In this document: positions 1,534 to 34,852 of the stretch, in pieces | Layout of the letters: each line of letters starts with the position of its first letter | Numbering within the stretch: position 1 is the stretch's first letter | Virus record (IMG/VR): IMGVR_UViG_3300005264_000023 | Span: 1 to 37,288 of that record | DNA: 37,288 nucleotides | From: a virus | Direction: 5' to 3' (one strand) | Position numbers and translations under genes: made by a program | Notes under the pieces: generated by a model | The model's database searches: none | What the model saw: only the letters and a program-made list of their open reading frames with translations | What the model was told of the DNA's origin: nothing

Positions 1534-2112
1534 TCAATCATCAATTACTAAATTTGGGTGAATTTTTTTCATTTTCTTTAAAATACTATTTTTTAATTCT
1601 TCATTATCAATTTTTATTTCTTCTCTAAATGAATCATTATCACCTTTTATTTCTTCTCTTAGTTTAGTATTTTCATCTTTAATTAAATCTATCAAATCTG
1701 TATGATCATTATAAGTAAAATATTTAACAACTATGTAAGAACCACCAGTAAGAAGAAAAAATGCAGCAATAATAGCAATAACAATTTTAAACTTTAATGA
1801 TAACCATCTTAGTATTTTCAATTTTTCCTCTTGATCTTTTCTAAATTTTGATAATTCAAAACTATCCATTTTTTTAAATGCTTCCTCGTATTTACTAAAA
1901 AATTTTTCTATTCTAATTAGAATTTTTAAATTTTCTTTACAATTTTCTTTAATAGGAAACATCTCTGTAGTTGTTAAATCTCTAACAGCATCAGCCATAG
2001 CGGATGTTTGACTAGCTAAACTTTCAATATCCTCACTATTTTTTTTACTTGATTCTTTTACTTGATCAAACAACTTATAAATAAAATCACCTGGTATTAA
2101 GTTGTTTTCCAT
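1534..2112 (-). CDS. One-pass membrane coiled-coil protein
   Basis: This 192-residue protein has a soluble helical N-terminal half, one hydrophobic segment at about residues 109-128 (IVIAIIAAFFLLTGGSYIVV) and a charged coiled-coil tail. The tail repeats the unit (L/F)REEIK-x-DN twice. Its ATG overlaps the stop of the upstream regulator gene by one base (TAATG), so it is likely coupled to it. Such a layout could suit a signalling partner or an envelope protein; no family is recognised. Confidence 0.65.
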   Translation of the reverse strand: MENNLIPGDFIYKLFDQVKESSKKNSEDIESLASQTSAMADAVRDLTTTEMFPIKENCKENLKILIRIEKFFSKYEEAFKKMDSFELSKFRKDQEEKLKILRWLSLKFKIVIAIIAAFFLLTGGSYIVVKYFTYNDHTDLIDLIKDENTKLREEIKGDNDSFREEIKIDNEELKNSILKKMKKIHPNLVIDD

Positions 2113-3395
2113 TACTTTTCTCCACTAAAATTTTGGATATCTTTTATAATAGAATCAATTTCATTGATCTTTTCTTTTCTCAAAACTATTCTAACATTTT
2201 CTTCTTCCTTCCATTTATTAAACTCATTTTCAAGATCAATATCAACTTTTGATTTTATTATATCAGACAGCATATGACTACTTTTTGACATAACTTCAAT
2301 TGATTTTTTTTCTTGTGTAATATCATGGACAAAGTAATAAATTTTATTTTCTAAAATATAAGCTGAAATAATACAATAAATTTCATCTTTATCTTTACTT
2401 AAGAAAGTAACTTCTTTATTTAAATTTTGACCATTTCTATGAAGTTCATTCAAAAATTTATCTCTTAATGATAAATCTTTCCATATATTTTTATCATTAA
2501 TATCTTTATCATTTAAATAATGATACTTTAAAAATTTATTAAATGATCTATTCCTATCTAAAACATTATGATCCATATCTGTAATAAAAATTATATCTCT
2601 ATTAAAATTAAAAGAACATCTGAGCATTTTTTCTTTTTCTTCCAAATCTTTTAAAATATTAATCATATTTGTTTGATCATAACAAACATTTACTACATCA
2701 TCACTTGGTAGTTTATAAATATAATTTGTTCTCCAAGTACCATCATCATATTGTTTTAAGTCGTCATCAAATGGATTTCCAGTCTTATAAACTTTTTTAA
2801 ATAAATTATTAAAATTATATTTACTTATATATGGAAATACATCTTTTCCATATTTACCAATAACATCTTTTCTATCTAATTTTTCAAGTTTTTCAGCTGC
2901 ACTATTCATATTAATAATTTTAAAATCCTTTCCGTTTTCAGTAGTATATATTATTATTGGGTCACTAGTTCCTTCCATTACCATTTTAAACCTTTTTTCT
3001 TCAGTCTTTATTTTATTTATCAATTTATATTTTTCAATAGTAAATAATATTGTTTGAATTAAAACATCACGACTAACTGGTTTTATTAAATAGCTTTGAG
3101 CTCCAGCTTTAGCAGCATCAATAGCTAAATCTGGATATCCAGATAAAATCATAATTGGACTATTAGTTGAAGATGAAATAATATTGTATAATTTTGTGCC
3201 TTTAGAATCAGGTAAAATCATATCTAAAATAATAATATCATAATTATTTAAATTTAACTTTAAAGATTCTTTTAAAGTTTTACATTCTTCAACAAAAAAT
3301 TTATATTTTTCATGAAAAGAAAGTAAAATTTTTATACCATCACAACTATCATCATCATCATCAATAATTAAGACATTAATTATATTATCACTCAT
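2112..3395 (-). CDS. Response-regulator receiver with two PAS-like domains
   Basis: Residues 6-120 form a CheY-like receiver: acidic cluster IDDDDDS (11-17), phospho-acceptor Asp58 in IIILDMILPD, Ser85 in MILSGYP and Lys105 in YLIKP, all in the expected order. Residues about 130-250 and 255-370 look like two PAS domains: the first has DPIIIYT and NMNSAAEKLEKLDRKDVIGK, the second has DIIFITDMDHNVLDRNRSFNKFL and ends in YYFVHDITQEKK. No histidine-kinase, DNA-binding or GGDEF/EAL module follows, only a helical tail, so the output is unknown. The gene is in a block with a coiled-coil membrane protein and two lipoproteins, all placed for late expression. Confidence 0.85.
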   Translation of the reverse strand: MSDNIINVLIIDDDDDSCDGIKILLSFHEKYKFFVEECKTLKESLKLNLNNYDIIILDMILPDSKGTKLYNIISSSTNSPIMILSGYPDLAIDAAKAGAQSYLIKPVSRDVLIQTILFTIEKYKLINKIKTEEKRFKMVMEGTSDPIIIYTTENGKDFKIINMNSAAEKLEKLDRKDVIGKYGKDVFPYISKYNFNNLFKKVYKTGNPFDDDLKQYDDGTWRTNYIYKLPSDDVVNVCYDQTNMINILKDLEEKEKMLRCSFNFNRDIIFITDMDHNVLDRNRSFNKFLKYHYLNDKDINDKNIWKDLSLRDKFLNELHRNGQNLNKEVTFLSKDKDEIYCIISAYILENKIYYFVHDITQEKKSIEVMSKSSHMLSDIIKSKVDIDLENEFNKWKEEENVRIVLRKEKINEIDSIIKDIQNFSGEK

Positions 3396-3408: not shown

Positions 3409-4086
3409 TTATATTTTTTTCAAAGATCCATTTGATTGAACTAATAAACCATAAAATTCTATAGGATCAATACTTTCCTCTCCTTCTATATGATGTATAG
3501 ATCTTACTTTATCAATTATAGCAGGTGGTAATTTATTTTTTAATTTAAGAAAAGTTTTAACATTCTTAATATCATCATCAATTAACCTTACTCTACGATA
3601 CTCACCAGTAGATAAATATTTTTTTATTATTTTTTCTTTATTACTAGACACAGTACCAGTTTTCATATTACCAGCTCTTTCTACATATATATTATCAATT
3701 GGAATACCTATTTTTCTAAAAGTATCTAAAAATGTTTCTTTATTATCAAAATCCGCTCTAGCTGTTAAAAGTATTACTCTAGATCCGCGTTTATTTATAT
3801 TCTGAAACATTCTCTTAATTCTTTTAATAGTTTTTTCAATAGGAACTGATGTTTTATTAAATAAATCAGCACTTCTAAATTCTCTAAAATCAAATATTTC
3901 ATCATCTTGTAGTTTGTATGTATTAAATTCTTGATTATTTAATTTTCTTTTTAATTTACCTGTCTCTTTATCTAAAACATATATTTTTGCAAAAGTTTTA
4001 AATATAGTTTCATCAATATCAATAAAAGTAATACCTTTACCATAAATAGATGATAATTCATTTATATAACTAAAAAATCTACTCAT
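3409..4086 (-). CDS. HAD-superfamily phosphatase with possible capsid-targeting N-terminus
   Basis: HAD motifs are all present: motif I DIDET (Asp23, Asp25), motif II ILLTAR (Thr108), a basic motif III region (about residues 142-155) and motif IV LIDDD (Asp170-172). The form resembles the 3'-phosphatase domain of phage polynucleotide kinases, but no kinase domain is attached. The first residues, MSRFFSYINE, end in I-N-E, as in the candidate packaged proteins across the divergent promoter; residues 11 onward lead into the domain. Start is supported by AGGAG ten bases upstream. It is the first gene after the palindromic late promoter. Substrate (nucleotide, DNA or RNA 3' end) is not decidable here. 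Confidence 0.8.
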   Translation of the reverse strand: MSRFFSYINELSSIYGKGITFIDIDETIFKTFAKIYVLDKETGKLKRKLNNQEFNTYKLQDDEIFDFREFRSADLFNKTSVPIEKTIKRIKRMFQNINKRGSRVILLTARADFDNKETFLDTFRKIGIPIDNIYVERAGNMKTGTVSSNKEKIIKKYLSTGEYRRVRLIDDDIKNVKTFLKLKNKLPPAIIDKVRSIHHIEGEESIDPIEFYGLLVQSNGSLKKI

Positions 4087-4172: not shown

Positions 4173-4724
4173 ATGAGATTTGAAAAATACATCAACGAAG
4201 GTGTAATAAAAAACTTATTAATAAAACAATTAAAAAAATATACTGCTGATAAAGCTTTAAATTTTTTAGAAAAACAATGGCAGAAAGCTATTAAAATGAT
4301 TAGAAAAAATGGATATGAAGATCAAGCATTACAAATATTAAATCAAAGTTTAAATACTAAATACAGAAGTTTAGATCAATTTAATAAACACAGTATGAAA
4401 AAAATGTTACCAGAAGAAGTACAAATTAGTAATAATCTTAATGAAGATTTTAAACATTGGTTTGATATGATAAAATCAGAGGCATTTCCTGCATTATCAT
4501 TTTATCCAGCACTTACAGCATGGTTAGAATTAGGTAAATTATTTGACGGTCCCGATGCTGTTGATTGGAAAAAATTTGCAGTATATGGTATATTTTGGGC
4601 ATTACTTGTATCTGGTAAATATATAAAAGAGTTTTTTAAATGGAAAAAACAAAATCCTAAAGAATATTATGCTGAAAGACCAAAGCTTGCAAAAAAACAT
4701 AATATAAATGTAGAGGAGTTATAA
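4173..4724 (+). CDS. Candidate packaged protein with hydrophobic segments
   Basis: A 183-residue protein starting MRFEKYINEG. The (I)NE|G end matches the T4 prohead-protease cleavage form (I/L)-x-E, and the start is the best example of a short N-terminus shared with 6139, 5859, 6672, 21404 and 23443. The rest is basic and helical, with two hydrophobic segments near residues 105-120 (AFPALSFYPALTAWLELG) and 130-148 (FAVYGIFWALLVSGKYI) that might insert into a membrane. It is first in the head block after the late promoter, with GGAG upstream. Delivery into the cell with DNA is an inference. Confidence 0.65.
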   Translation: MRFEKYINEGVIKNLLIKQLKKYTADKALNFLEKQWQKAIKMIRKNGYEDQALQILNQSLNTKYRSLDQFNKHSMKKMLPEEVQISNNLNEDFKHWFDMIKSEAFPALSFYPALTAWLELGKLFDGPDAVDWKKFAVYGIFWALLVSGKYIKEFFKWKKQNPKEYYAERPKLAKKHNINVEEL

Positions 4725-4725
4725 A

Positions 4726-5112
4726 ATGGAATTAGAAGAAAAATATATTTTAAGTACAAATTTTTCAGAACCAGTAGATCTTGATGAAAGTCTTTTTAAT
4801 AAAATGATGGACTTTATAATTGAATTAGATGAAAATGAACTAACAGAAGATCAAATTACAAAAGTAGTTGATATATTAAGTGATATTGAATTTGAAGAAG
4901 ATGTTAGTGAATTAAAAAGAACTAAAAGAACAAATATACAAAAAAAACAATATGCTAGAAAGTATAGAAAAGCAAATAGAAATAAAATTAAAATGAAAAA
5001 GAAAAAATTTCAAAGAAGTGCTGAAGGTAAAAAAAGAAAAAGATTAGCAAAACGAATGGCTAAATCAAAAAAGACACCAACTGGTAGACGTAAAGTAAAG
5101 TATAATAGATAA
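4726..5112 (+). CDS. Acidic-then-basic small protein, probably virion or DNA-binding
   Basis: The 128 residues split sharply: residues 1-62 are acidic (ELDENELTED, DIEFEEDVSE), and residues 63-128 are almost all Lys/Arg with few hydrophobics (KRTKRTNIQKKQYARKYRK and similar), ending GRRKVKYNR. The basic tail suggests DNA binding or condensation inside the capsid. The start MELEEKYIL resembles the tagged proteins but has no immediate (I/L)-x-E; a possible site is LDE|S at about residue 21. The upstream gene ends one base before it and carries GAGGAG at its end. Confidence 0.6.
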   Translation: MELEEKYILSTNFSEPVDLDESLFNKMMDFIIELDENELTEDQITKVVDILSDIEFEEDVSELKRTKRTNIQKKQYARKYRKANRNKIKMKKKKFQRSAEGKKRKRLAKRMAKSKKTPTGRRKVKYNR

Positions 5113-5571
5113 ATGATAAAAAAGGTATCAGGAAAAAATATAAGTAAATACTCTCCTGTAAACTTAAAAAAATATAAAGGTAAAATACCTATTATAGTAA
5201 GAAGTTCATGGGAAAGAATGTTGTGCCAATGGATAGATCATAATTCTAATATTTTAGAATGGTCTAGTGAGTCAATAATAATACAATATTTTGATCCTGT
5301 TCAAAATAAATTAAGAAGATATTATCCAGACTTTCTTGTTAAAATAAAAAATAAGTATGGAAAAATTGAAAAATGGATAATAGAAGTTAAACCTTATCAT
5401 GAAACACAGCCACCAAAATTTTCAAAAAAGAAGTCTAAAAAAACTTTATTACATCAAGAGTCAACATATATAACTAATACAGCTAAATGGAAAGCTGCTA
5501 ATAATTATTGTAATAAAATGAAATGGAAATTTAAAATACTTACAGAAAAACAAATGTTTAATAAAGGATAA
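5113..5571 (+). CDS. gp4: gp4-like head completion protein (TnsA/PD-ExK nuclease fold)
   Basis: The 152 residues match the T4 gp4 (gp50/65) head-completion family: VRSSWERMLCQWID, then NILEWSSESIIIQY, then RRYYPDFLV and IIEVKPY. These supply the nuclease-like residues Glu34, Asp73 and Glu91-x-Lys93. T4 gp4 is about 150 residues and acts after packaging, before the tail joins. The gene starts directly after the previous stop with no clear ribosome binding site, so translation is probably coupled. No targeting tag is present. Confidence 0.85.
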   Translation: MIKKVSGKNISKYSPVNLKKYKGKIPIIVRSSWERMLCQWIDHNSNILEWSSESIIIQYFDPVQNKLRRYYPDFLVKIKNKYGKIEKWIIEVKPYHETQPPKFSKKKSKKTLLHQESTYITNTAKWKAANNYCNKMKWKFKILTEKQMFNKG

Positions 5572-5577
5572 ATTATT

Positions 5578-5859
5578 ATGAATATATTAGAAAAGATAGA
5601 TTTATTTCTAATTGATGAAGGTGTATGGAAGAAAGTAATAAGAAATAAAAAGTTAGTAAAAAAATTAATTTGTCCTTCAGGATTTAAAGCTCAAGGTGGA
5701 AAATGTGTAAAAATGAAAGCAATAGAAATGCAAAAAAGAAAAAAATCAAGTAAAATTGCTCAAAAAAAATTACATGCTAATAAAGCAAAAATGTTTAAAT
5801 TAGAGAAAAAAAGAATGAAATCAATGAATAAAAGATCATCAGTTATAGGAGATCAATAA
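5578..5859 (+). CDS. Small basic candidate packaged protein
   Basis: A 93-residue, strongly basic protein starting MNILEKIDLFLIDEG; I-D-E|G fits a prohead-protease site at residue 14. A short Cys-containing motif, CPSGFKAQGGKCVKM (about residues 52-66 in the first half of the basic region), recurs in small basic proteins of large T4-like phages as far as I recall. The remainder is Lys/Arg-rich and probably binds DNA. AAGGA lies upstream and its stop overlaps the next start (TAATG). Confidence 0.6.
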   Translation: MNILEKIDLFLIDEGVWKKVIRNKKLVKKLICPSGFKAQGGKCVKMKAIEMQKRKKSSKIAQKKLHANKAKMFKLEKKRMKSMNKRSSVIGDQ

Positions 5860-6137
5860 TGAAATTAGAAAATAAATATTTAAAAGAATCTAAAATGTTT
5901 AAAAAAACTAAAGTTGAAATTAATGATGTATTAAAAGCTGCTGATAAATTAGTTATAGAAAATATGAATCTTGTTAGTAAATATACTGATAAATTAATGA
6001 AAGAAGCAGAAATGAAATATATTAAAAATGAAGATTCTATGAGTCCTGCAGCTGCAAGAGATATTTTCCTTTCAAGTTATACTAAATCTTTTGAAAATTA
6101 TATAAATGGTATTGTAAGATCTTTAGGAAAAATTTAA
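5859..6137 (+). CDS. Small candidate packaged protein, unknown
   Basis: A 92-residue, mainly helical protein starting MKLENKYLKES, with L-K-E|S fitting the protease-site form. It is nearly neutral, with no membrane segment or recognised fold. Its ATG overlaps the preceding stop by one base, and GGAG lies eight bases upstream. It belongs to the tagged cluster 4173-6899. Confidence 0.55.
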   Translation: MKLENKYLKESKMFKKTKVEINDVLKAADKLVIENMNLVSKYTDKLMKEAEMKYIKNEDSMSPAAARDIFLSSYTKSFENYINGIVRSLGKI

Positions 6138-6138
6138 A

Positions 6139-6675
6139 ATGAGATTTGAAAATTATATAACAGAAAAAAAATGGATGAAAGGCACAATGCTTGGATTCAC
6201 TATTGACCGTAACAAAATAAAAAGAATATCAGATTATGTTGAAAGTTGGTTAATTAAACACAAAATAAAATATACTAAACCTAAAGAACAACATTTTACA
6301 ATAGCTCAAATTCCAAAAAATTATCCTAAAGATGAACTAGTTAGAGAATTGAATAATCTTTCAAATTTAGATATTAAATTTAAACCAAAAGACTTACAGT
6401 TATTTCAAGGTTTAAGTACACCAAATGATTATATAGTATTAGAATATAAACCAAATTTTAAATTTCTTGAATCTTTTAATAGTGTAGCATCAAAATTTGA
6501 TATTAAAAAATTTGCTGGAGTAAAACCACATACATCAATTTTTATAATAGATAAAAACTCTATAGATCAAAATTTATTAAAAGATATTAAATTTAGTATG
6601 CCAAAATTACCTATCTTAAAATCAAAAGAAGTCGGTTTATGGAATAATAAATTTGAAATGGAGACAAAAATATGA
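6139..6675 (+). CDS. 2H phosphoesterase with capsid-targeting-like N-terminus
   Basis: The 178 residues contain the two signatures of the 2H (LigT-like) phosphoesterase superfamily: H52-F-T54 in EQHFTIAQI and H131-T-S133 in KPHTSIFII, about 80 residues apart as usual. The N-terminus MRFENYITE|K matches the tagged proteins. The superfamily includes 2'-5' and cyclic phosphodiesterases, tRNA-repair enzymes and the T4 anti-CBASS protein Acb1, so the likely chemistry is hydrolysis of a cyclic or 2'-5' nucleotide bond. Substrate cannot be told from sequence. The gene overlaps the next by ATGA. If packaged, it would reach the cell with the DNA. Confidence 0.75.
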   Translation: MRFENYITEKKWMKGTMLGFTIDRNKIKRISDYVESWLIKHKIKYTKPKEQHFTIAQIPKNYPKDELVRELNNLSNLDIKFKPKDLQLFQGLSTPNDYIVLEYKPNFKFLESFNSVASKFDIKKFAGVKPHTSIFIIDKNSIDQNLLKDIKFSMPKLPILKSKEVGLWNNKFEMETKI

Positions 6676-6899
6676 AATTAGAAGAAAAATATTTGATAAA
6701 CGAAAGCTGGGATGAAATAAAAAGAGAATTTATAAAAGATAAAAAAAATATGAAACTGGTCCATGAAGTAAGTAAAAAATTAAATTATGATGTATGGCAA
6801 ACAGCTGCATTCGTTCTTGAATTACTTACTGATGTTAATATGCATCCAGAATCAAAAAAAATTGAAACATACTTTAATAAAGAATATAAAAATATGTAA
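6672..6899 (+). CDS. Small candidate packaged protein, unknown
   Basis: A 75-residue helical protein starting MKLEEKYLINES; I-N-E|S fits the protease-site form. The body (WDEIKREFIKDKKNMKLVHE onward) is charged, with no recognised domain. The start overlaps the stop of the 2H phosphoesterase gene as ATGA, so the two are probably made together. Confidence 0.55.
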   Translation: MKLEEKYLINESWDEIKREFIKDKKNMKLVHEVSKKLNYDVWQTAAFVLELLTDVNMHPESKKIETYFNKEYKNM

Positions 6900-6901
6900 T
6901 T

Positions 6902-7390
6902 ATGGCAATAAGAAGAATATATAAGAAAAGGTTTAGTAATGTAACTGTAAAAAGTGGATATATTTATTCTTTTAAGTATCGTGCTTGGGCAAATGATCCA
7001 CGACCAACAGTAATAATGATGTATGCTTTAGAAGGTATTCATCCAAATACTGGACATCAATGGAGATTTTTTCAAGCAATTAATTTTACTTATATTCCAA
7101 GATCACAGAGAATGATGTTTGCAAGAGAATGGAAAATTATATTTGAAAGAACTAATGGTAATGTAAGACTTACATGGGAATTAGTAAAAAAAAGATATCC
7201 ATTTATGCAAAATGCTGTAAGAAGATATTTTTTTAAACCTAATTATTATATAACTGGTTTAAAAGAAATACCATTTGACGATATGGAAAAATATATTATA
7301 TCTACTTGGAGTAAAGACTTTTCTAAAAAAGTTAAATCTAGTTTGATAAATAAATTTAGAAATGTACTAAAACGTAGGAGAAATAGATGA
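6902..7390 (+). CDS. Conserved-looking basic phage protein, unknown
   Basis: A 162-residue basic protein rich in aromatic residues (KSGYIYSFKYRAWANDPRPT, then HPNTGHQWRFFQAINF and TYIPRSQRMMFAREW) with an Arg/Lys tail (NVLKRRRNR). I recall similar proteins beside portal genes in large T4-like phages but cannot give a function. It lacks the (I/L)-x-E N-terminus of its neighbours. No strong ribosome binding site precedes the ATG. Its stop overlaps the next start (ATGA). Confidence 0.6.
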   Translation: MAIRRIYKKRFSNVTVKSGYIYSFKYRAWANDPRPTVIMMYALEGIHPNTGHQWRFFQAINFTYIPRSQRMMFAREWKIIFERTNGNVRLTWELVKKRYPFMQNAVRRYFFKPNYYITGLKEIPFDDMEKYIISTWSKDFSKKVKSSLINKFRNVLKRRRNR

Positions 7391-7680
7391 ACACATATCA
7401 AGAATTTTATGAAGGCGAAATAAGAACATTAAAATTATCAATAAGAGATAAAGATGGACAAAAATTTTATCCTATATCAGCATCAGCATCAGTAATTGAT
7501 TCTAATAGTGTTACAGTTTCTTCTGCTGGAACTTCAGCATCAGTAATTAATAATGAAGTATTTAAATTAATAGATGGGAATACTACAAATACACCTGGCC
7601 AATATAAAATAATATGGGAATTATCTAAAGATCAACATATATATAAGCATGTTACAGAACTAAGAGTGAGTAAATTATAA
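7387..7680 (+). CDS. Small beta-sandwich protein, probably structural
   Basis: A 97-residue protein with alternating beta-strand pattern: EIRTLKLSIRDKDGQKFYPI, then Ser/Ala/Val-rich strands and a closing PGQYKIIWELS and HVTELRVSKL. This resembles the small Ig-like or BppU-N-type domains seen in phage particle proteins (entry form Y-x-G-x-x-R-x-L-x-L). GGAG is nine bases upstream. The start MNTYQEFYEGE recalls the T4 internal-protein tag MKTYQEFIAE, but it is better explained as the first strand of this fold. Confidence 0.55.
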   Translation: MNTYQEFYEGEIRTLKLSIRDKDGQKFYPISASASVIDSNSVTVSSAGTSASVINNEVFKLIDGNTTNTPGQYKIIWELSKDQHIYKHVTELRVSKL

Positions 7681-7794: not shown

Positions 7795-9342
7795 ATGAAA
7801 TTTTTTGATAAATTTAGAGATAAAAGTAAAGAAGAAGAATTAATAGTAGAAAAAACTGAAGCATTTAAACCAAAAGTAAAAGAAAAATATCCACCAACAG
7901 ATGCAGGCGAAGGTGCTGACATACTTGCTGCTTTAGCAATGTTTGATAATATAGGACTATCATCATTCAATTTATTTTATAATACTTATATAAATCAACA
8001 CTATAAAAATAATATACATAGAATAAGATCTTATAGAGAAATGGCTGTTGCGACAGAAATTGCTGATGTTATAGAAGATGCTGCTAATGAATCAATACAA
8101 ACAGATGAAGATGGAAATGTAATTCATTTGGAAATAAAAGATAAAAACTTGAATGAAAATATGATAAAAAATCTAAATAAATCTTTTAATGATTTATTCT
8201 ATAAAAGACTAAACTTAGTAGATTTATTATGGGATATGTTTTTTACTTATCTAGTAGATGGAAAAGTATTTTATGAAAGAGTTATAGATACTAAACATAA
8301 AAAAAATGGAATAGTAAATCTTAAAAAATTACCAACAACTACAATGGATATAATTATTGATCCATTAACAAATAGAATTAAGGTTTTTCTTCAATATTTA
8401 AGTGAAAGACCAGGTTCGTTTGTATCTATAGAACAAGCAGAAGCAGATCCTAAAATAGTAGTTTTTTATCCTGATCAAATTGGATATATAAATTATGGTT
8501 TATTTGGTCAAACACAAATGGATATTATTGGATACCTTGAAAAGGCTAAAGTACCGTTTAATCAATTAAAATTACTTGAAACATCCGTTATTATATATAG
8601 AATAGTAAGAGCACCGGAAAGATTAGTATTTAGAATTGATACAGGTAATATGCCAAAAGATAAAGCACTTGCTTATGTTGAAAAAATTAAATCAAAAATG
8701 ACAAGAAAACAAACATATGACACTAAAACTGGACAACTTACAAGTAGTCCAGAAATTATGTCAATGTTAGAAAACTATTATGTTCCACAATCTGCTGATG
8801 GTAGAGGATCAAATATTGATACTGTTGGTGGTGATTCAAAAGGATTCACAGAACTTGATGATATTTACTATTTTTCAAGAAAATTATATAGAGCTTTAAA
8901 ATATCCTATATCAAGAGTAACAGCAGAACAAGAAAATAGAGGAGCAGATATTGTATTTGGTGGATCTAACGTTGGTGAAATAAGTAGAGATGAAATTAAA
9001 TGGGCAAGATTTCTTGAAAGACAACAAGATAGATTTACTAAAAATCTAGAAGAAACTTTTTTAATCCATTTAGATTTTATAGGATTAAAAAAACAATATA
9101 ATTTATCAAGTAGATCATTTAAAATTAGAATGAATCCACCATCAAAATATAAAGAACAAATGGAACAAAACTTTTTAGAATCAAGATACAATAATTATAT
9201 GGCACTTGCTGATAGAGATGAAATATCAAGATCTTTCTTAATGAAACGATTTTTGAAATGGTCAGAAGAAGATATTGAGGAAAATGTGGCTGAGCTGGAT
9301 AATGATTATAAACTTGGATTTAGAGTAAAAGAAGAAATGTAA
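7795..9342 (+). CDS. gp20: Portal vertex protein
   Basis: This 515-residue protein is a T4 gp20-type portal, the dodecameric ring through which DNA is packaged and to which the neck joins. Recognisable are the N-terminal helix region (SYREMAVATEIADVIEDAAN), LDIIIDP-type strands, RAPERLVFRIDTGNMPKDKA, the long helical stretch and IYYFSRKLYRALKYPISR followed by FLERQQDRFTKNLEETF. T4 gp20 is 524 residues. A TTG at 7765 would add ten residues, but the ATG at 7795 has AAAGGGG eight bases before it and overlaps nothing, so it is chosen. It is followed by protease, scaffold and capsid genes in T4 order. Confidence 0.93.
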   Translation: MKFFDKFRDKSKEEELIVEKTEAFKPKVKEKYPPTDAGEGADILAALAMFDNIGLSSFNLFYNTYINQHYKNNIHRIRSYREMAVATEIADVIEDAANESIQTDEDGNVIHLEIKDKNLNENMIKNLNKSFNDLFYKRLNLVDLLWDMFFTYLVDGKVFYERVIDTKHKKNGIVNLKKLPTTTMDIIIDPLTNRIKVFLQYLSERPGSFVSIEQAEADPKIVVFYPDQIGYINYGLFGQTQMDIIGYLEKAKVPFNQLKLLETSVIIYRIVRAPERLVFRIDTGNMPKDKALAYVEKIKSKMTRKQTYDTKTGQLTSSPEIMSMLENYYVPQSADGRGSNIDTVGGDSKGFTELDDIYYFSRKLYRALKYPISRVTAEQENRGADIVFGGSNVGEISRDEIKWARFLERQQDRFTKNLEETFLIHLDFIGLKKQYNLSSRSFKIRMNPPSKYKEQMEQNFLESRYNNYMALADRDEISRSFLMKRFLKWSEEDIEENVAELDNDYKLGFRVKEEM

Positions 9343-9545: not shown

Positions 9546-10166
9546 ATGATGAAATTAATAACGGAAATTTCAAAAGAATTAGTAGTTAATGAATCTAAAA
9601 GTAAAGGCACTTTTATTACTGGTATTTTTAGTTCTGCTGAAATTGAAAACAACAATGGTAGAATATATAAAAAACAACTTTTAGAACGTGAAATTAAAAA
9701 AATTATTCCTAAAGTAGAAAAGAAATGTTTATGGGGTGAATTAGGACATCCACCAAATCCAGAAGTAAATCCTGATAAAATAGCTATTCTTACTACTATG
9801 TTAGAATGGAAAAATAATGATGTATATGGAAAATCAAAAGTACTTGATACACCTTTTGGTAATATTTTAAAAACTCTAGTGAAAGAAGGTAGAATGGGTA
9901 TTAGTTCTAGAGGTCTTGGTACTGTAGGAGAAGATGGATATGTAAATGAAGATTTTAGTTTACTTGTTTATGATGCTGTAACAGATCCTTCAAATAACCC
10001 TTCATGGGTAAAAGGAATTTTTGAAGCAAAAGATTTTAATATTATTGAAGATCCAAAAGAAAGAGAAAAAGAAATTGATGAACATTTAACAATTTTGCAA
10101 AATTTTGCAAAAGCACCTAAATCAAAAATCTTTAAAGCTTTAGGTTATGATAAAAAAATTAAATAA
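9546..10166 (+). CDS. gp21: Prohead core protease
   Basis: A 206-residue T4 gp21-type serine protease (herpesvirus-assemblin-like fold). The catalytic His is in WGELGHPPNPEVN and the Ser in GRMGISSRGLG. T4 gp21 is 212 residues and cleaves prohead proteins after (I/L)-x-E once the shell is built. Its own N-terminus has VNE|S near residue 17, a possible self-cleavage site. GGAG is placed for the first of two adjacent ATGs. It is the presumed processing enzyme for all the tagged proteins in the window. Confidence 0.92.
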   Translation: MMKLITEISKELVVNESKSKGTFITGIFSSAEIENNNGRIYKKQLLEREIKKIIPKVEKKCLWGELGHPPNPEVNPDKIAILTTMLEWKNNDVYGKSKVLDTPFGNILKTLVKEGRMGISSRGLGTVGEDGYVNEDFSLLVYDAVTDPSNNPSWVKGIFEAKDFNIIEDPKEREKEIDEHLTILQNFAKAPKSKIFKALGYDKKIK

Positions 10167-10250: not shown

Positions 10251-11099
10251 ATGAAAGATCTTTTGAAAATGTTGGGAGTAGATAAACTTGATGAATCTCA
10301 ACAAGAAAATATTAAGGATAAGATAGAAACAATTATTGATTTAAAAGTTAGTGAAAAAGTAACAGAAAAACTAACAGAAGAAAAAGAAAATCTAATTGAA
10401 TCTTATGAACAAAAATTTGATGAATATAAAGATGATATTACATCAAAATTTAGTAATTTTGTTGACTCAGTAATTGATGAAGAATTAGTAATTCCTGATA
10501 AAATTATGGAATACGCAAAGAAGGGTGAACTTTATGATGATCTTATTGAACAATTTAAAGTAAGACTTTCTATTGATGAAGGACTAATTGAAGATGAAGT
10601 AAAAAGTCTTTTGAAAGAAGCAAAAGAAGAAATCATTAAAATGAAAGATGAAATGAATGATTTTGTATCTGAAAATCTTGAACTTAAAACAGATGCTCAA
10701 AAATTAGCAGCTGAATTATACTTGAGAAAGAAATCAGATGGACTAACTGAATCACAAAAAGCAAAATTATTTGCAGTATTGGAAGGTATTGTAAGTAAAG
10801 AAGAAATTGACAAGAAGTTTGATATTATCATCGAAAGTCTAAATGAGGGTGATGAAGAAGATGATAAGAAGAAGGGCGATGAAGACGAAGACGAAGATGA
10901 TGATAAGAAGAAAGAAGGTAAGAAGAAAGAAGGTAAGAAAGGTGATGAAGACGAAGATGAAGATGATGAAGATGATAAAAAGAATGAAGGTAAAGGCCAT
11001 GCTAGTGTAGATGGTGATAACGACCTAAATGAAAATGATTCACCTTTTGATACATACATTAAAAGTTATGTAAAAACCCTCAGAGAAAGTAAAATATAA
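10251..11099 (+). CDS. gp22: Prohead core scaffold
   Basis: A 282-residue, highly acidic coiled-coil protein in the gene 22 position between protease and capsid. The N-terminus (LLKMLGVDKLDESQQ) and the long Glu/Lys helices fit the T4 gp22 scaffold (269 residues). Residues about 200-248 form a low-complexity run of Asp/Glu/Lys blocks (GDEDEDEDDDKKKEGKKKEG and similar) built on a repeated gatgaagacgaagatgat DNA unit. The end, SPFDTYIKSYVKTLRESK, looks like the conserved capsid-binding tail. LDE|S at residue 15 is a possible protease site. Confidence 0.88.
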   Translation: MKDLLKMLGVDKLDESQQENIKDKIETIIDLKVSEKVTEKLTEEKENLIESYEQKFDEYKDDITSKFSNFVDSVIDEELVIPDKIMEYAKKGELYDDLIEQFKVRLSIDEGLIEDEVKSLLKEAKEEIIKMKDEMNDFVSENLELKTDAQKLAAELYLRKKSDGLTESQKAKLFAVLEGIVSKEEIDKKFDIIIESLNEGDEEDDKKKGDEDEDEDDDKKKEGKKKEGKKGDEDEDEDDEDDKKNEGKGHASVDGDNDLNENDSPFDTYIKSYVKTLRESKI

Positions 11100-11128: not shown

Positions 11129-12352
11129 ATGGAAATTAAAGAATTAGTAAAAAAATGGAGTGAAGTGATCAATGAAGGATCAAAGATCAGAAGTGATAAA
11201 GTAAAAAAAGCCACAGCAATTATGTTGGAAAATCAACATAAATTCTTGGAAGCAAGAATAGATGAATCAACAGCTTTTGCTGGTGATAGTTTAAATACTA
11301 CTGGTGGTTATACTGGATCTGGTATGTTTCATAAAATCGCTGTACCAATGGTAAGAAGAACATTCCCAGAATTGATTGCTCACGATTTAGTAGGTGTTCA
11401 ACCAATGACTGGTCCTGTTGGATTGGCTTTCGCGCTTAGATTTGTTTCAGGTCAAGCTTATGATAGTACAATTGGAACAGAATTAGGTTATAATACTATT
11501 GATAAGACTTATACTGGATCATATAATACTTCAGCCGGTGAAGTACTTGGTTCAAAATCTGGATCTGGTGTTGGTAATGATGTTGGTATTGGTCTTGGTG
11601 CTGGTACTCATATTAAAGAAGTAAATATGACAGTAGAAAAGGCTCAAGTGGAAGCACAAACTCGTAAGTTGAGAAGTCGTTGGTCACTTGAAGTAGCTCA
11701 AGATTTAAAAGCTATGCATGGTCTTGATCTTGAAGAAGAAATGATGGATATTCTATCATACGAAATTACCGCTGAAATTGATCGTGAATTGATTGATAAA
11801 ATTGATGCCGTTTGTGTTGCTGGTGGTGCTAGTTATTCTTCTACATGGGATTATAACGCAGCTTCTGGTACTGGTGTTCCAGGTGGTAGATGGGAACTTG
11901 AAAGATATAGAGAACTATATCACCACTTGATCAGAAAATCAAATGCTATCGCTGTTAATACAAGACGCGGTGCAGGTAACTGGGTTGTATGTAATCCAAA
12001 TGCTTGTGCAATCTTTGAAACACTTTCAGCTTTTACTATCGCACCTGTAGCCTCAGATGTAACAACAGCTAATACTGGTGTTGCAAGATTAGGCTCATTG
12101 GATGGTAGAATTGCTGTTTATCGTGATACATTTCAAACAAATGATCAATTTATTGTTGGATATAAAGGACCATCAGAATATGATACTGGTGTAATTTATT
12201 TACCATATATTCAATTGCTACCTGCAAGATCTACTTTTGAAGATTCTTTCAACTCAGCAGTTGGTCTTATGAGTCGTTATGCTATTCATGACCATCTATT
12301 TGGAAGTAAAGAATACTACCAAAGAGTAAACCTTGTAGCAATCCCAAAATAA
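11129..12352 (+). CDS. gp23: Major capsid protein
   Basis: A 407-residue HK97-fold T4 gp23-type capsid protein: KIAVPMVRRTFPELIAHDLV, GVQPMTGPVGLAFALRF, LRSRWSLEVAQDLKAMHGLD and the C-terminal LMSRYAIHDHLFGSKEYY. T4 gp23 loses 65 N-terminal residues to gp21. The equivalent site here is probably IDE|S after residue 46, just before AFAGDSLNTTGG; a second (I/L)-x-E site, INE|G, follows residue 16. AGGAGG lies upstream. G+C is a little higher than in neighbouring genes, as expected of a highly expressed gene. It ends just before a strong terminator. Confidence 0.95.
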   Translation: MEIKELVKKWSEVINEGSKIRSDKVKKATAIMLENQHKFLEARIDESTAFAGDSLNTTGGYTGSGMFHKIAVPMVRRTFPELIAHDLVGVQPMTGPVGLAFALRFVSGQAYDSTIGTELGYNTIDKTYTGSYNTSAGEVLGSKSGSGVGNDVGIGLGAGTHIKEVNMTVEKAQVEAQTRKLRSRWSLEVAQDLKAMHGLDLEEEMMDILSYEITAEIDRELIDKIDAVCVAGGASYSSTWDYNAASGTGVPGGRWELERYRELYHHLIRKSNAIAVNTRRGAGNWVVCNPNACAIFETLSAFTIAPVASDVTTANTGVARLGSLDGRIAVYRDTFQTNDQFIVGYKGPSEYDTGVIYLPYIQLLPARSTFEDSFNSAVGLMSRYAIHDHLFGSKEYYQRVNLVAIPK

Positions 12353-15004: not shown

Positions 15005-16492
15005 CTAATTTCTTTTATAATCTACAGAATAAACAAATTCTTTATCATTAATTTTTGTTTTTAACATACTTCTCCCACCCCACAAATAACTAATATGTTT
15101 CATAGTTTCTTTTGTATAATCTGGATCAAGATCAACTCCTGCCCATTTATGATGTAAAACAATTTCTTTTCTATCATATCCCTTCACAACTTCTATTGCT
15201 GGAATATGACTATGAACAAAACTGTTTACTATAATTTTTCTAGTTTCTTCTGCTTCATGATCTGTAATTATCCATCTTTCCCAATCTGGAACAGGAACTT
15301 GTTTTACATATAAATAAATGTTTAAATCTTTTACTAATTTTGCTGTTAAAAATTCTTGAATAAAAAACCAATCATTATAATTACTTAAAACAGTTTTAAT
15401 TTTTTCATTACCAGCCATTGTTTTTTTATCCCAATTTTCTAATTCTACAGCATTAGTACAATTTTTATAATCTTCACCAAATTTTCCTGTATTCCATCTA
15501 TCTTCAATATCTTCCCATATACTACATCCAACTAGATAAGGATTTAAAGAATAAGGATTTGTTGCTTTCACTAATGAATTTGCATAATTAAACTGTGCAT
15601 GTTCACTATCATTAAGAAATCCTCTTTTAAAAAGTTCTTTCATTACTTTTTGATGAATAAATGTTGCGAATCCTTCATTAGCATATTTTGATTTAATTGA
15701 TGGCCAATAATATCTACCTTCATCTCTAAGAGTTTCAAGTATATCTTTTTGCCAATCATCTAAAATTACAGAATTATCAACTAAAAACCTTAAAATATCT
15801 TCAGTAGGTTCAACAGGTTTTTTTAGTCTTAAAGTTCTCATTAACAATTGATTTTTTAAACCAACATCAATTTCCTTTTTATTATCATCTATAGTTAATA
15901 TATCACGAAATTCAGAATGAATCTCAGGTTCTTTTACTAACAATTTTTGTTTATAAATTCTTTCAATTTTTTGATCTTCAGTTTCATTATCAAAAGGACT
16001 TGAATGAAATTGAATTGCATGTCCAGCATCAATAGTTTTTTCAACTTCTTCAATTCCATAGATTTTTTCATATTTTGAAAATCTATTACTAGCAGATGAC
16101 ATTACTTCCAATATATCTCTACGAGAATTTTGAAATAATCTATTATGGTAAAAAAAAGCAGCGTGTCCACATACATGAGCCATTACCAAACACTGAACAG
16201 CTAAAGTATTAGATTTCATTAAATACGACCTAACAGGATCAGTATTTAAAACAACTTCATATGGCAATCCTGCATCCATATTATCATAAATAGTTTTTTG
16301 TCTTTCATAATCACGACCATATTTCCAATTAGAAATATTAGTAGGAATACGATAAGCCATAATTTCCATCATTTTAACATCTGGAATAATATCCCATTCA
16401 ATATCATAATATTCAAAACCCATTTCTTCTTTAACAATTTTATGAATTTCTTCTTCAATTTTGATAAGTCTTTTTAGTTCAGATCTATTCAT
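15005..16492 (-). CDS. spoVR: SpoVR/YcgB family protein
   Basis: A full-length, 495-residue SpoVR-family protein (E. coli YcgB is about 510). Typical are the N-terminal helical part with GFEYYDIEWDIIPDVKMMEI, MAYRIPTNISNWKYGRDYER, the CGHAAFFYHN stretch, RDEGRYYWPSIKSKYANEGF, YSLNPYLVGCSIWEDIEDRW and a C-terminal HHKWAGVDLDPDYTKET. SpoVR is needed for spore cortex in Bacillus; in other bacteria it accompanies yeaH and prkA in starvation-linked operons, with no known biochemistry. It follows yeaH by three bases and has its own AGGGGA site. There are no frameshifts or missing parts, so it looks functional. Confidence 0.95.
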   Translation of the reverse strand: MNRSELKRLIKIEEEIHKIVKEEMGFEYYDIEWDIIPDVKMMEIMAYRIPTNISNWKYGRDYERQKTIYDNMDAGLPYEVVLNTDPVRSYLMKSNTLAVQCLVMAHVCGHAAFFYHNRLFQNSRRDILEVMSSASNRFSKYEKIYGIEEVEKTIDAGHAIQFHSSPFDNETEDQKIERIYKQKLLVKEPEIHSEFRDILTIDDNKKEIDVGLKNQLLMRTLRLKKPVEPTEDILRFLVDNSVILDDWQKDILETLRDEGRYYWPSIKSKYANEGFATFIHQKVMKELFKRGFLNDSEHAQFNYANSLVKATNPYSLNPYLVGCSIWEDIEDRWNTGKFGEDYKNCTNAVELENWDKKTMAGNEKIKTVLSNYNDWFFIQEFLTAKLVKDLNIYLYVKQVPVPDWERWIITDHEAEETRKIIVNSFVHSHIPAIEVVKGYDRKEIVLHHKWAGVDLDPDYTKETMKHISYLWGGRSMLKTKINDKEFVYSVDYKRN

Positions 16493-16495
16493 ATT

Positions 16496-17806
16496 TTATT
16501 TCCCCTTCTTTTCAAAAAGAAAGTGTTTTAGTGTTGGATAAATATGCTCTTTATTTTTAATTAAACTCGCTAAAAAATGATGTTTTTCATCTTTATAAAA
16601 GAAAGTATCTTTTTGTTTAATTTCTTTAAAATTCCATTTTTCATAACTAACAATATGTTTTAAAAGTGATGTATATAATTCTTCACCTTGAAGATTAATT
16701 TGACAATATCCTAGCATATTAATTTTTCTTTCAATCATTTTATCAATAGTAGTCACTGTTTTTTTAGGATCGAAATCTTCACCATCAGAAACATAAACAC
16801 AATAAACATTCCAATCACTTACAGGATATTGAGTATCAATAATATAATTAGCCTTTTCAAATGCAGAAGAACAAAATGTTCCACCATAAGAACTTTCATT
16901 AAAAAATCTTTCTTCATCTGTTATTTCAGCTTCAGTTGTATGTCTAATAAATACAATCTCAACATTATCATATACTTTTTTCAAAAATTCCATCATCCAA
17001 AATAACATTGATCTAGCAAGATATTTTTTATCTCTTGTCATTGATCCAGATACATCCATCATTGCTATTACCACAGCATTTGAATGAAATTCAACATCTT
17101 GCTCTATTTGTTTATATCTTAAATCTTCATCACTAATAAAAATACCTGGATCATTTGAAGGTTCTAATGTGCCATTATTAATTATTTCAATGGCTTCATT
17201 AATATCACCAATAGCTTGAATTAATGCTTTATTAGCATCATCTTCTGAACACCCAGTTTCATTCATAATTTCATATGAAAAAGCAACATTTCTTTTAATT
17301 GATTCTAACATAGTACGTTTTTTATGTATCATTGGTACTATACCAGTTTTAGAAATGGTTTCAAATTTCCATCCTTTAGGAATTGCTTTTTCTTTTTTAG
17401 TTTTTTCTTCAATCCATGGCAATCCTAAATCATTAAACATAATTTTTATAATATAATCAATGTCAACTTCTGTTTCCATATAGTATTCACCATTTTTATC
17501 ACCAGCACCTTTACTATCATCTTTACCTTCTTTTTGATGAATAATATCACCGGGTTTCCCATCACCCTGCCCAACACCACCACTATTACCTTTACCACTA
17601 GGATTACCATATCTAAATTTATAATCTTTTAATCCACGAATAGGAATTTTAACTTTTCTACCACGTTTTGTTGTTATGATTGATTCTTCTGAAATAACAT
17701 CTTTCACACTTTTTCGAATTGACTCTTCAACTTTCTTTTGATGTCTCTCAATATCTTTTTTTCCTTTTTCAGAAAAATCCCAATCATCATGATATACAAC
17801 AGTCAT
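16496..17806 (-). CDS. yeaH: YeaH/YhbH (DUF444) von Willebrand A protein
   Basis: A 436-residue YeaH/YhbH homologue. Order: basic N-terminus (MTVVYHDDWDFSEKGKKDIE), the Arg/Lys region GRKVKIPIRGLKDYKFRYG, a Gly/Asp-rich linker (about 68-106), then a von Willebrand A domain with MIDAS DVSGS (251-255), RHTTEAEITDEERFF, the GGTFCSSAF loop and VYVSDGEDF. E. coli YeaH is about 427 residues. Between KRTMLESIKRN and GIFISDEDLRYK there is an apparent insertion (about residues 175-212) reading like a UBA/TS-N helix bundle. AAAGGAG and a near-perfect sigma-70 promoter lie directly upstream. It is first in a yeaH-spoVR-terminase transcript. Confidence 0.93.
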   Translation of the reverse strand: MTVVYHDDWDFSEKGKKDIERHQKKVEESIRKSVKDVISEESIITTKRGRKVKIPIRGLKDYKFRYGNPSGKGNSGGVGQGDGKPGDIIHQKEGKDDSKGAGDKNGEYYMETEVDIDYIIKIMFNDLGLPWIEEKTKKEKAIPKGWKFETISKTGIVPMIHKKRTMLESIKRNVAFSYEIMNETGCSEDDANKALIQAIGDINEAIEIINNGTLEPSNDPGIFISDEDLRYKQIEQDVEFHSNAVVIAMMDVSGSMTRDKKYLARSMLFWMMEFLKKVYDNVEIVFIRHTTEAEITDEERFFNESSYGGTFCSSAFEKANYIIDTQYPVSDWNVYCVYVSDGEDFDPKKTVTTIDKMIERKINMLGYCQINLQGEELYTSLLKHIVSYEKWNFKEIKQKDTFFYKDEKHHFLASLIKNKEHIYPTLKHFLFEKKGK

Positions 17807-17846
17807 AAATGACTCCTTTTATTTTTTAGTGTTCTCAATATGTTTT

Positions 17847-17875
17847 ATTATAACATATATCTTTCAAAATGTAAA
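17847..17875 (-). promoter_or_regulatory. Sigma-70-type promoter for yeaH-spoVR
   Basis: On the minus strand TTTACA, 17 bases, TATAAT, with TG at the extended -10 position (TATGTTATAAT). That is 5 of 6 and 6 of 6 consensus bases. The predicted start lies about 30 bases before the yeaH ATG. Confidence 0.8.
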
Positions 17876-17915
17876 TACCCCCATAAACATACATATTATA
17901 TATTCATGGGGGTAT
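17875..17915 (-). terminator. Probable prkA terminator overlapping the next promoter
   Basis: Perfect 10-bp stem ATACCCCCAT with ATGGGGGTAT and a 21-base loop, 29 bases after the prkA stop. A modest T-rich run (TTTACATTTT on the minus strand) follows and is also the -35 region of the yeaH promoter. The loop is long, so termination may be partial. Confidence 0.5.
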
Positions 17916-17943
17916 ATTTATTAAATTCTATCAGTTATGAAAT

Positions 17944-21403: not shown

Positions 21404-21982
21404 ATGAGACTAGTACAATTTATAAATGAAGATATAAATTTAGATAGAATAAAAAAACAATGTAAATATTATATTGATTTAGTAAAAAAAAGTAATTGTA
21501 ATAATAAATTTCTTTATAAAGGTATGAATAAACAACATGATTTTGATATAATAAAAACAAGAAAAAACAGAAATCCTTTAAATATGCCTTTAAAATTACA
21601 TACTTATTTAGACTATTTATTTAAGAAAAAATTTGGTGTAAAATTAAGAAGTGAAACAATATTTGTAACTAGTGATGTTGTATGGTCTGGTAATTATGGA
21701 TTTCGAAATATTATAATTCCTATAGGTAAATTTGATTATTATTGGAACCCACATATGGATGATCTTTATGAAGATCTTCCATTTTTTACATCAGATAGTA
21801 ATATAGAAAAAAATCTTGATAAATATAAAGAAGAAATTATTGAAATTGTAGATGGATATAAAAAAAATAAAGCTTTCAAAGTAATGAAAGATGTTTTTGA
21901 TGGTGAAGTAATGATTGATTGTAAATCATATTATGCTACTACATCAGAAGATTCAGAATATTTAAATCAATTATTTGAATAG
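21404..21982 (+). CDS. Candidate packaged ADP-ribosyltransferase-like protein
   Basis: A 192-residue protein starting MRLVQFINE|D, the tag form seen at 4173-6899. The body has a conserved pattern I recall from large T4-like phages: FLYKGM (36-41), a segment NRNPLNMPLKLHTYLDYLF, LRSETIFVTSD (81-91), then IIIPIGKFDYYWNPHMDDLY, and GEVMIDCKSYYA (167-178). The order (Y-x-G near the N-terminus, a TS strand, then an E-V strand) resembles R-S-E class ADP-ribosyltransferases, but the usual Arg of YRG is Lys here and the ExE is not clear. T4 Alt is a packaged ADP-ribosyltransferase, so the idea is attractive but unproven. It is inserted between neck genes. Confidence 0.55.
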   Translation: MRLVQFINEDINLDRIKKQCKYYIDLVKKSNCNNKFLYKGMNKQHDFDIIKTRKNRNPLNMPLKLHTYLDYLFKKKFGVKLRSETIFVTSDVVWSGNYGFRNIIIPIGKFDYYWNPHMDDLYEDLPFFTSDSNIEKNLDKYKEEIIEIVDGYKKNKAFKVMKDVFDGEVMIDCKSYYATTSEDSEYLNQLFE

Positions 21983-23442: not shown

Positions 23443-23637
23443 ATGAGAATAAAGAAATACTTATTAAATGAAAAAATATTTAATATGTCTGCTATTGTTG
23501 GTAATAAAAAAATTACAAAACCAGTAGTTGCAAAAAATGATAATGATGCAATAAAACAATTCGAAGATTTTTTAAAAATTCAAATTAAATATAAACACAT
23601 AAAAAATGGAAAAATAGAAAATGTTAAAATAAATTAA
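23443..23637 (+). CDS. Small candidate packaged protein
   Basis: A 64-residue basic protein starting MRIKKYLLNE|K, a form close to the tagged proteins. The rest (MSAIVGNKKITKPVVAKNDN onward) looks like a small beta-alpha unit and is not recognised. GGAG lies seven bases upstream. It sits between the tail terminator and the glycosyltransferase fusion. Confidence 0.5.
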   Translation: MRIKKYLLNEKIFNMSAIVGNKKITKPVVAKNDNDAIKQFEDFLKIQIKYKHIKNGKIENVKIN

Positions 23638-33776: not shown

Positions 33777-34103
33777 ATGGAATTAGAAAAAGTAAAATAT
33801 AATTTAAAAAAAGGAACTGATTATTATTATATAGTTCCAAAAAATGAAAAACAGAGTAAAGAAATTCAAAAATTTCTTCTTAGTAATGGTTTTCAATGGC
33901 GGGGGAATGAAAAATGGATTCCAAGTAGAATTATAAAAAGATATAAAATATATTTTAATATGCAGTTTTTTATAATGTACGACTCATTTGTACCAAAATA
34001 TACTGTTGATGCATTAAATTTAGATTTTAAAGTATTAAAATCTGGACTATTAAAAAATAAGAATAAAGAGTTTATTAATGATTTATTCAAAGAAATAATA
34101 TGA
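33777..34103 (+). CDS. Tandem paralogue family, copy 1
   Basis: A 108-residue member of a local family: YYYIVP, then (Q)KFLLSNGFQWRG, RYKIYFNMQFFIMY and a C-terminal NKEFINDLFKEII. Family layout is a short helix, a YY-I strand, a QDFL-x-NGF-W helix-turn, a variable loop, a YY-x-I strand pair and a terminal F-I-D-x-LF-x-x-I helix. Its start overlaps the preceding stop. Function unknown. Confidence 0.6.
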   Translation: MELEKVKYNLKKGTDYYYIVPKNEKQSKEIQKFLLSNGFQWRGNEKWIPSRIIKRYKIYFNMQFFIMYDSFVPKYTVDALNLDFKVLKSGLLKNKNKEFINDLFKEII

Positions 34104-34175
34104 AATATATTATTAAAATAATGAAGTTAATTTTACACTTACCTTATAATATAATAAGAGTGAATTTTTTAGATT

Positions 34176-34505
34176 ATGATTAATGAAATAAAAAAAGAAT
34201 TAAAAAATACATGGTCATTATTTTATTATGTAGAAGTTCATAATCAAAAAGAATCATTTAGACTCCAAACATATTTATTTGAAAATGAATTTCAATGGAC
34301 TGGAGATAATAATCCTAGTTTTAATACTTTATCAAAAATAAATTATTATATATTACATGATGTTAGAGGAATTTTTACAATACAGTATTTAATAGGAGAA
34401 TTAAAAGAAGAACTTTTACGTCCATATACTGTTAAATTTATAGATTTTTCTGATTTGTTTTTAGAAAAGAAATTTTTAAATAGTCTTTTTGATGGAATTA
34501 TATAG
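34176..34505 (+). CDS. Tandem paralogue family, copy 2
   Basis: A 109-residue paralogue: MINEIKKELKNTWSLFYYVE, RLQTYLFENEFQWTG, INYYILHDVRGIFTIQY and KKFLNSLFDGII. The first ten residues are identical to those of copy 3. A 72-base gap separates it from copy 1. It ends two bases before copy 3. Confidence 0.6.
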   Translation: MINEIKKELKNTWSLFYYVEVHNQKESFRLQTYLFENEFQWTGDNNPSFNTLSKINYYILHDVRGIFTIQYLIGELKEELLRPYTVKFIDFSDLFLEKKFLNSLFDGII

Positions 34506-34507
34506 AT

Positions 34508-34852
34508 ATGATTAATGAAATAAAAAAAGAATTAAAAAAAAATAATAATAATAGTTGTAGATATTCATATTATATAAAGGTTAAAGGTAATGAAATATTT
34601 CGATGCCAAGACTTTCTTATAAAAAATGGTTTTTTATGGAACTCTGGATGTGATAATCTTGATGTACAAAATATTCCTATAAAGTATTATCGAATATATT
34701 ATCAAAATAGATTTAGAATACTATATAGTGATACAGAAGATATTGATTTTACATTACCATATGATAGTATAGTTGACTTTAAAGATTTAATAAAAGTTAA
34801 TTTTAAACCTAAAAATTTTATTGATAATCTATTTGAAAGCATAAAAATATGA
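34508..34852 (+). CDS. Tandem paralogue family, copy 3
   Basis: A 114-residue paralogue: MINEIKKELKKNNNNSCRYS, YYIKVKGNEIFRCQDFLIKN, GFLWNSG, YYRIYYQNRFRILY and KNFIDNLFESIKI. An Asn run follows the first helix. Its stop overlaps the start of copy 4 (ATGA), so the copies are probably translated together. Confidence 0.6.
   Translation: MINEIKKELKKNNNNSCRYSYYIKVKGNEIFRCQDFLIKNGFLWNSGCDNLDVQNIPIKYYRIYYQNRFRILYSDTEDIDFTLPYDSIVDFKDLIKVNFKPKNFIDNLFESIKI

Follow-up and report, generated by a model that had tools for sequence, protein, structure and literature searches.

A 37,288-base stretch of viral DNA (IMG/VR virus record IMGVR_UViG_3300005264_000023; 26.5% GC), called the window throughout, carries eight genes whose products begin with a leader of 9-14 residues, in every case ending in (I/L)-x-E. 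It is very likely that these leaders are packaging-and-cleavage tags of the bacteriophage T4 type (capsid-targeting sequences, CTS), carried by a greatly expanded set of cargo proteins. The window is part of an uncultured T4-type myovirus, and a cognate gp21-type (S77) protease and a gp22-type scaffold are both encoded in it, as in a T4-type CTS system (Table 1, where genes are named by their first coordinate in the window). Its capsid protein is about 35% identical to the nearest ones in named phages and 54-73% identical to those of many relatives in IMG/VR.

In the ten-residue leader of T4 IPIII, targeting depends on residues 4 and 7 and processing on residues 8 and 10; the cut by gp21 falls after L/I-X-E (PMC9026906). 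We call a pattern exact when it follows these mapping experiments, with a hydrophobic residue at P7, Tyr or Phe at P4, Ile or Leu at P3 and Glu at P1, placed at residues 8-14. The window leaders share the spacing of IPIII (F3-Y6-I7-E9 in MRFEKYINE), and the exact pattern was found in four window genes (3409, 4173, 6139, and 21404), while protein interiors predict 0.2, and 300 shuffles of the first residues yielded no more than two. A relaxed pattern, in which one extra residue was permitted at either of two places, selected precisely eight of the 48 window genes, the extra-residue cases being 5578, 5859, 6672, and 23443. These are the eight that a preliminary description of this DNA had named, and their N-termini read as given there, all with (I/L)-x-E. 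Clustering without the first 18 residues confirmed its further statement that the bodies of the tagged proteins are mutually unrelated. With a loose regular expression, 10 of the 48 genes were matched, compared with 1.9 in shuffles.

Since the patterns were picked after the window had been seen, the relatives provide a fairer test. Across the window and its relatives, the exact pattern was found in 137 of 1,999 proteins (6.2 expected), which fall into 91 body families that share the leader only; 57 of these families are singletons, and the tagged sets differ strongly between relatives. The 161-kb relative G001 has at least 32 tagged proteins (1.1 expected), compared with three in T4 by the same exact test. 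This number should be read as a minimum, since the gene caller missed the start of a tagged CCA-adding enzyme, which had appeared leader-less through a wrong start call and in fact bears the leader MRFKRYLAE. The tagged genes of G001 lie in islands; in the one at 140,679-148,186, for example, most genes in succession have the tag. Other relatives gave 16 exact cases versus 0.6 expected (G004), 10 versus 0.3 (G005), and 9 versus 0.5 (G003); a fifth relative fetched whole or nearly so gave five, with about one or fewer expected, and two additional ones gave 15 and nine. Among cultured, named T4-type controls, the exact pattern occurred once each in pf16 and HTVC008M and not at all in S-CAM3 and XG4. 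A weight matrix trained on G001 alone scored 87 of 1,748 held-out proteins at 10 bits or more (2.3 expected), four window genes among them; the leader of 5859 scored 8.5 bits, a value reached by 0.2% of interiors.

Could the motif be a by-product of composition, or of translation-start constraints, in AT-rich genomes with K/N/E/I/L-rich N-termini? Such residues are indeed common at the GC content of the window. However, shuffled N-termini and protein interiors yield about 0.2-1 case per genome compared with 4-32 observed, and composition would leave unexplained both the conservation among orthologues and the enrichment after the glutamate described below. Two more distant phages, with 51% and 57% GC, have six exact cases each, nearly all with the consensus MITFKQFLxE in the same register; a leader at such GC contents and with a different consensus is not a composition effect. 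We regard composition or start-codon bias as refuted and give it virtually no weight.

The residue following the glutamate (P1') bears on whether the leaders are cut. Although this column was not used in selection, it holds Ala, Gly, Ser, or Thr in 51% of families compared with a background of 23% (binomial p 2e-8), an enrichment of small residues as expected for cleavage; when the same motif occurs in protein interiors, P1' is small in 19%. In the window, Gly or Ser follows the glutamate in four of the eight leaders. The same form is seen in 60 distinct capsid proteins of the group, whose inferred maturation site is mostly (Y/F/W)-(L/I/M)-x-E followed by T, A, G, or S, so that a single enzyme would seem to accept both the tags and the capsid site. 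The preliminary description had drawn attention to INE/G in the capsid protein of the window. That string is present as VINE/G, but it was rejected as the maturation site: alignment with relatives and with T4 gp23, whose known cut is at FLTE/A (position 65), puts the likely cut at RIDE/S, where ARIDE is followed by Ser near residue 46.

Orthologue comparisons revealed how the leader behaves relative to the body that it precedes. In the orthologues of 3409, the four determinants are kept in all eight aligned sequences while the remaining leader positions vary. They are kept in three of four orthologues of 6139, whose homologues L201-L203 have leaders. The homologues of 4173 start with MRLEEYLNE (G005, 74921), MRFNNYLKE (L058), and MPMRFDEYLKE (G004, 99063). 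Homologues of 3409, 6139, and 21404 thus mostly retain the leader, which is what the preliminary description had required of homologues in related phages. The leader can also be exchanged: one body is preceded by MKFKRYLVE in L051:2580, by MLKENEKIFEAYKQVIVNE in L050:3635, and by MDLIDKIDHMISE in L017:2369, and another shared body has different leaders in L033:4873 and L043:3513. Recognized domains begin past the leader, as in 3409, where the phrog_415 match spans residues 17-179 (Pfam HAD matches were below the cut-off). Judged by sequence, dozens of unrelated proteins in this phage group share the tag, which is a detachable module.

A third leader type, approximately M..(N/D)E(K/R)I..AY...(V/I)LNE, was seen on many small genes around the protease and capsid genes; it occurs near the protease-capsid operon in L017, L033, L035, L036, L039, L043, L050, and L052, and some of its bodies are common to genes tagged with MR(F/L)xxYLxE. 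In the window, the product of 7387-7680 begins with MNTYQEFYEGE, which resembles the T4 leader MKTYQEF and departs from the I/L-x-E rule; its relative in G001 (113052-113342) begins with MAETYQAFYINE followed by Val.

Under one alternative, the tagged proteins are prohead core components like T4 gp67 and gp68, which enter the head, are cut, and serve assembly rather than acting on the host. Gene 5578 is probably such a core protein and not cargo because it matches the head scaffolding family phrog_3503; 4726, a gene omitted from the preliminary description, looks like a basic core protein, and several small tagged genes are located among the head genes and close to the capsid operon. No family match was obtained for 4726, whose homologues bear the leader NNFLSE followed by PV, or IEKYLQE. 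As an account of the whole set, however, the core alternative is unlikely. Many tagged bodies are recognizable enzymes with no evident assembly role, including in the relatives an NT5C nucleotidase, a carbon-nitrogen hydrolase, amidoligases, a methyltransferase, GNAT, zeta-toxin-like kinases and, in two genomes, a tRNA CCA-adding enzyme; moreover, the tagged sets vary strongly among relatives, and many lie in islands distant from head genes. The preliminary estimate of at least seven cargo proteins was somewhat high for the window, where four are firm, three probable, and one is a likely core protein, and far too low for the group, in which large contigs hold 5-32 exact cases each.

Gene 6139 is a probable 2H phosphoesterase on the evidence of its residues: H52-F-T54 and H131-x-S133 are invariant in four homologues, giving the two conserved H-x-(T/S) motifs about 80 residues apart that characterize this family. 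No hidden Markov model match and no fold support for a 2H phosphoesterase were obtained, the AlphaFold2 model built from four sequences being unreliable (predicted local distance difference test, pLDDT, 45.8). No homologues of 6139 or 5578 were found in named phages. For 4173, no significant Pfam or PHROG family was found; a lone marginal PADLOC match to Cas10 (16.5 bits, among ten proteins) was judged to be chance.

Gene 21404 belongs to a widespread phage family. A scan of viral contigs with 21404 alone gave no match, while a small alignment (A2) gave 51 loci. Among 41 relatives, 34 have a leader-like N-terminus and 24 the exact pattern, and the model of 21404 (mean pLDDT 87.5, residues 1-8 below 50) shows a disordered leader on a confident body. 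The conserved order YRG, S-x-F-x-T, E-I-M resembles that of ADP-ribosyltransferases, with Lys in the window copy where most have Arg. Despite the confident model, no match to an ADP-ribosyltransferase was found by Pfam, PDB sequence, or Foldseek-PDB fold, and the only matches in a viral structure library were homologues of 21404 from Atu_ph07, from uncultured marine phages, and from unnamed entries. The cultured jumbo phage Atu_ph07 (MF403008) has, at 39484-50592, a tandem array of about 11 leader-bearing 21404 paralogues. The array corresponds to gp053-gp063, a numbering consistent with that of gp4, gp5, and gp18 in the published paper. A 778-aa member has a zeta-toxin domain according to its BFVD name, and L130 was listed together with Atu_ph07 for such a tandem array. 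The array lies within coding sequences 31-76 of Atu_ph07, for which 29 proteins were detected in virions by mass spectrometry, and the virion proteins of this phage number 131 in all (PMC6102473).

The closest known counterpart of the window leaders is the CTS of T4 IPI-III. Both are leaders of about 10 residues with a hydrophobic P7, an aromatic P4, Ile or Leu at P3, Glu at P1, and a small P1' favored, and both precede unrelated bodies in phages with an S77 protease and a T4-type scaffold. They differ in consensus, MR(F/L)xxY(L/I)xE here and MKTYQEFIAE in T4, and in that several recognizable enzymes are tagged here and far more genes carry the tag. T4 has three such genes, and at least 10 have been reported over its relatives (PMC12373910); no published example with thirty in a single phage was found among the open-access papers searched. 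T4 Alt, an injected ADP-ribosyltransferase cut by gp21, is likewise a tagged, enzyme-sized cargo, and the 21404 family has conserved residues in an order like that of ADP-ribosyltransferases, whereas no sequence or structural match of 21404 to any such enzyme was found. The giant phages phiKZ and SPN3US package and eject many head proteins that a gp21-like protease cuts after x-x-E (PMC5694885), but the propeptides of these proteins often exceed 100 residues and are cut at S/A-x-E, as opposed to 9-14 residues ending in I/L-x-E here. The Atu_ph07 proteins gp053-gp063 share with the window a short N-terminal leader ending in L-x-E on 21404 homologues; they are mostly tandem paralogues rather than unrelated bodies, and their leader has another spacing.

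Applied to T4 itself, the exact pattern recovers ipII, ipIII, and the small gene 61.1 (NC_000866, 18966-19130; 54 aa), whose product begins with MKTFKEFIKE followed by Asp and conforms to the CTS pattern, like ipII and ipIII. T4 gp61.1 may be an unrecognized internal protein, though Asp follows the Glu.

Taken together, the testable defining features of T4-type CTS internal proteins are present at the sequence level, with differences in consensus and above all in number. The proposal of the preliminary description that these are T4-type leaders cut by a gp21-type protease gains strong independent support from the T4 register, the protease and scaffold in the gene block, the capsid-site motif, the P1' signature, the conservation among orthologues, and the exchange of leaders.

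Several observations weigh against this interpretation. Half of the window leaders fit only with an extra residue. Four of the eight window leaders have a bulky or charged residue at P1' (L, K, D, K), as do all aligned 3409 orthologues except one, so these leaders may be cut slowly or not at all. A portion of the tagged set may consist of core proteins rather than injected cargo. Gene starts came from a simple home-made caller, and one checked start was wrong, albeit in the conservative direction. The Atu_ph07 leader, MRWxQLTE, misfits the four-determinant register, and the virion hint from gp053-gp063 is at the level of the cluster of coding sequences 31-76. Under a further alternative, the leader targets another phage structure, such as a membrane or replication compartment, and its likeness to the capsid site is incidental. 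We consider this highly improbable given the T4 CTS register, the capsid-maturation-site form, and a P1' signature specific to cutting.

Table 1. Leaders, tagged genes, and head genes in the window
Feature	Position	Strand	Evidence
Leader MSRFFSYINE (then L) of HAD phosphatase-like gene	4057..4086	-	exact motif; kept in 8/8 aligned orthologues
3409, leader-tagged HAD-superfamily/PNKP-phosphatase-like protein, 225 aa, probable cargo	3409..4086	-	phrog_415 polynucleotide kinase, E 1.3e-7
Leader MRFEKYINE (then G)	4173..4199	+	exact motif
4173, tagged protein of unknown function, 183 aa, probable cargo	4173..4724	+	4/4 family members tagged
4726, probable prohead core protein, basic C-terminus, degenerate leader NFSE/PV	4726..5112	+	
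T4 gp4-like head completion/closure protein	5113..5571	+	phrog_218 head closure, E 1e-48; TnsA-like endonuclease N-terminal, E 1e-21
5578, leader MNILEKIDLFLIDE (then G) on probable prohead core/scaffold protein	5578..5859	+	phrog_3503 head scaffolding, E 2e-7; relaxed motif
5859, leader MKLENKYLKE (then S), one extra residue; 92 aa, probable cargo or core	5859..6137	+	
6139, leader MRFENYITE (then K) on probable 2H phosphoesterase, 178 aa, probable cargo	6139..6675	+	exact motif
6672, leader MKLEEKYLINE (then S), two extra residues; 75 aa, probable cargo or core	6672..6899	+	relaxed motif
T4 gp2-like DNA end protector	6902..7390	+	phrog_429, E 8e-6
Portal protein, gp20-like	7795..9342	+	phrog_213, E 4e-95
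gp21-type prohead protease, presumed leader-cutting enzyme	9549..10166	+	Pfam Peptidase_S77, E 4e-28; phrog_207, E 5e-51
gp22-type scaffold, presumed binding partner of leaders	10251..11099	+	Pfam T4_CASP, E 2e-11; phrog_237
gp23-type major capsid protein	11129..12352	+	phrog_138, E 3e-90; aligned with relatives and T4 gp23
Terminase	starts 13403		
21404, leader MRLVQFINE (then D) on 192-aa protein of widespread phage family, probable cargo	21404..21982	+	exact motif
23443, leader MRIKKYLLNE (then K), one extra residue; 64 aa, possible cargo	23443..23637	+	relaxed motif

Elsewhere in the window, between the terminase and the neck genes, adjoining genes for SpoVR, DUF444 (YeaH), and PrkA serine protein kinase (E 2e-94, 3e-90, and 1e-114) lie on the minus strand at 15005-19899, the trio known as the bacterial prkA-yeaH-spoVR set; PrkA-like N-termini occur in relatives too, for example in L028 at 12949. 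Five open reading frames in a row at 33777-35612 (108-136 aa), several with alike tails (NSLFDGII, DNLFESIKI, DDLFESIKL), resemble a family of tandem paralogues, and the single one checked had no Pfam match. On the minus strand, 2112-3395 encodes one phage protein with response-regulator receiver and PAS domains, and at 23652-26198 an 848-aa protein joins a glycosyltransferase group 1 domain to a methyltransferase domain.

We hypothesize that the CTS-like leaders would bind the gp22-like scaffold core during head assembly and so bring the tagged proteins into the prohead, where the gp21-type protease would cut after (I/L)-x-E and remove the 9-14 residues. The mature bodies would remain among the packaged DNA and be ejected into the host at infection. 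Packaging, cleavage, injection, and action on host defense or takeover are inferred from the T4 proteins Ip1-3 and Alt by analogy. A whole kit of proteins probably enters the bacterium from each virus particle together with the DNA. Proteins injected with phage DNA act ahead of any phage gene expression, and those of T4 disarm host restriction enzymes.

More tentatively, the virion of this phage group may be a general protein-delivery vehicle, with the tag on at least 10% of the genes in some members and a payload that includes a pre-loaded RNA-repair kit (the PNKP-like phosphatase, the 2H phosphoesterase, and the tRNA CCA-adding enzyme). We hold this to be rather unlikely. The RNA-repair flavor of the three enzymes is suggestive only; if the reading is true, the kit would undo tRNA-cutting defenses from the first moment of infection. 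The lineage-specific versions of the tag permit a test of the joint evolution of protease, scaffold, and tag. A reliable sequence tag makes the cargo of uncultured phages a catalogue readable from the genome alone, and the 91 tagged families, mostly of unknown function, are candidates for counter-defense or host-takeover proteins.

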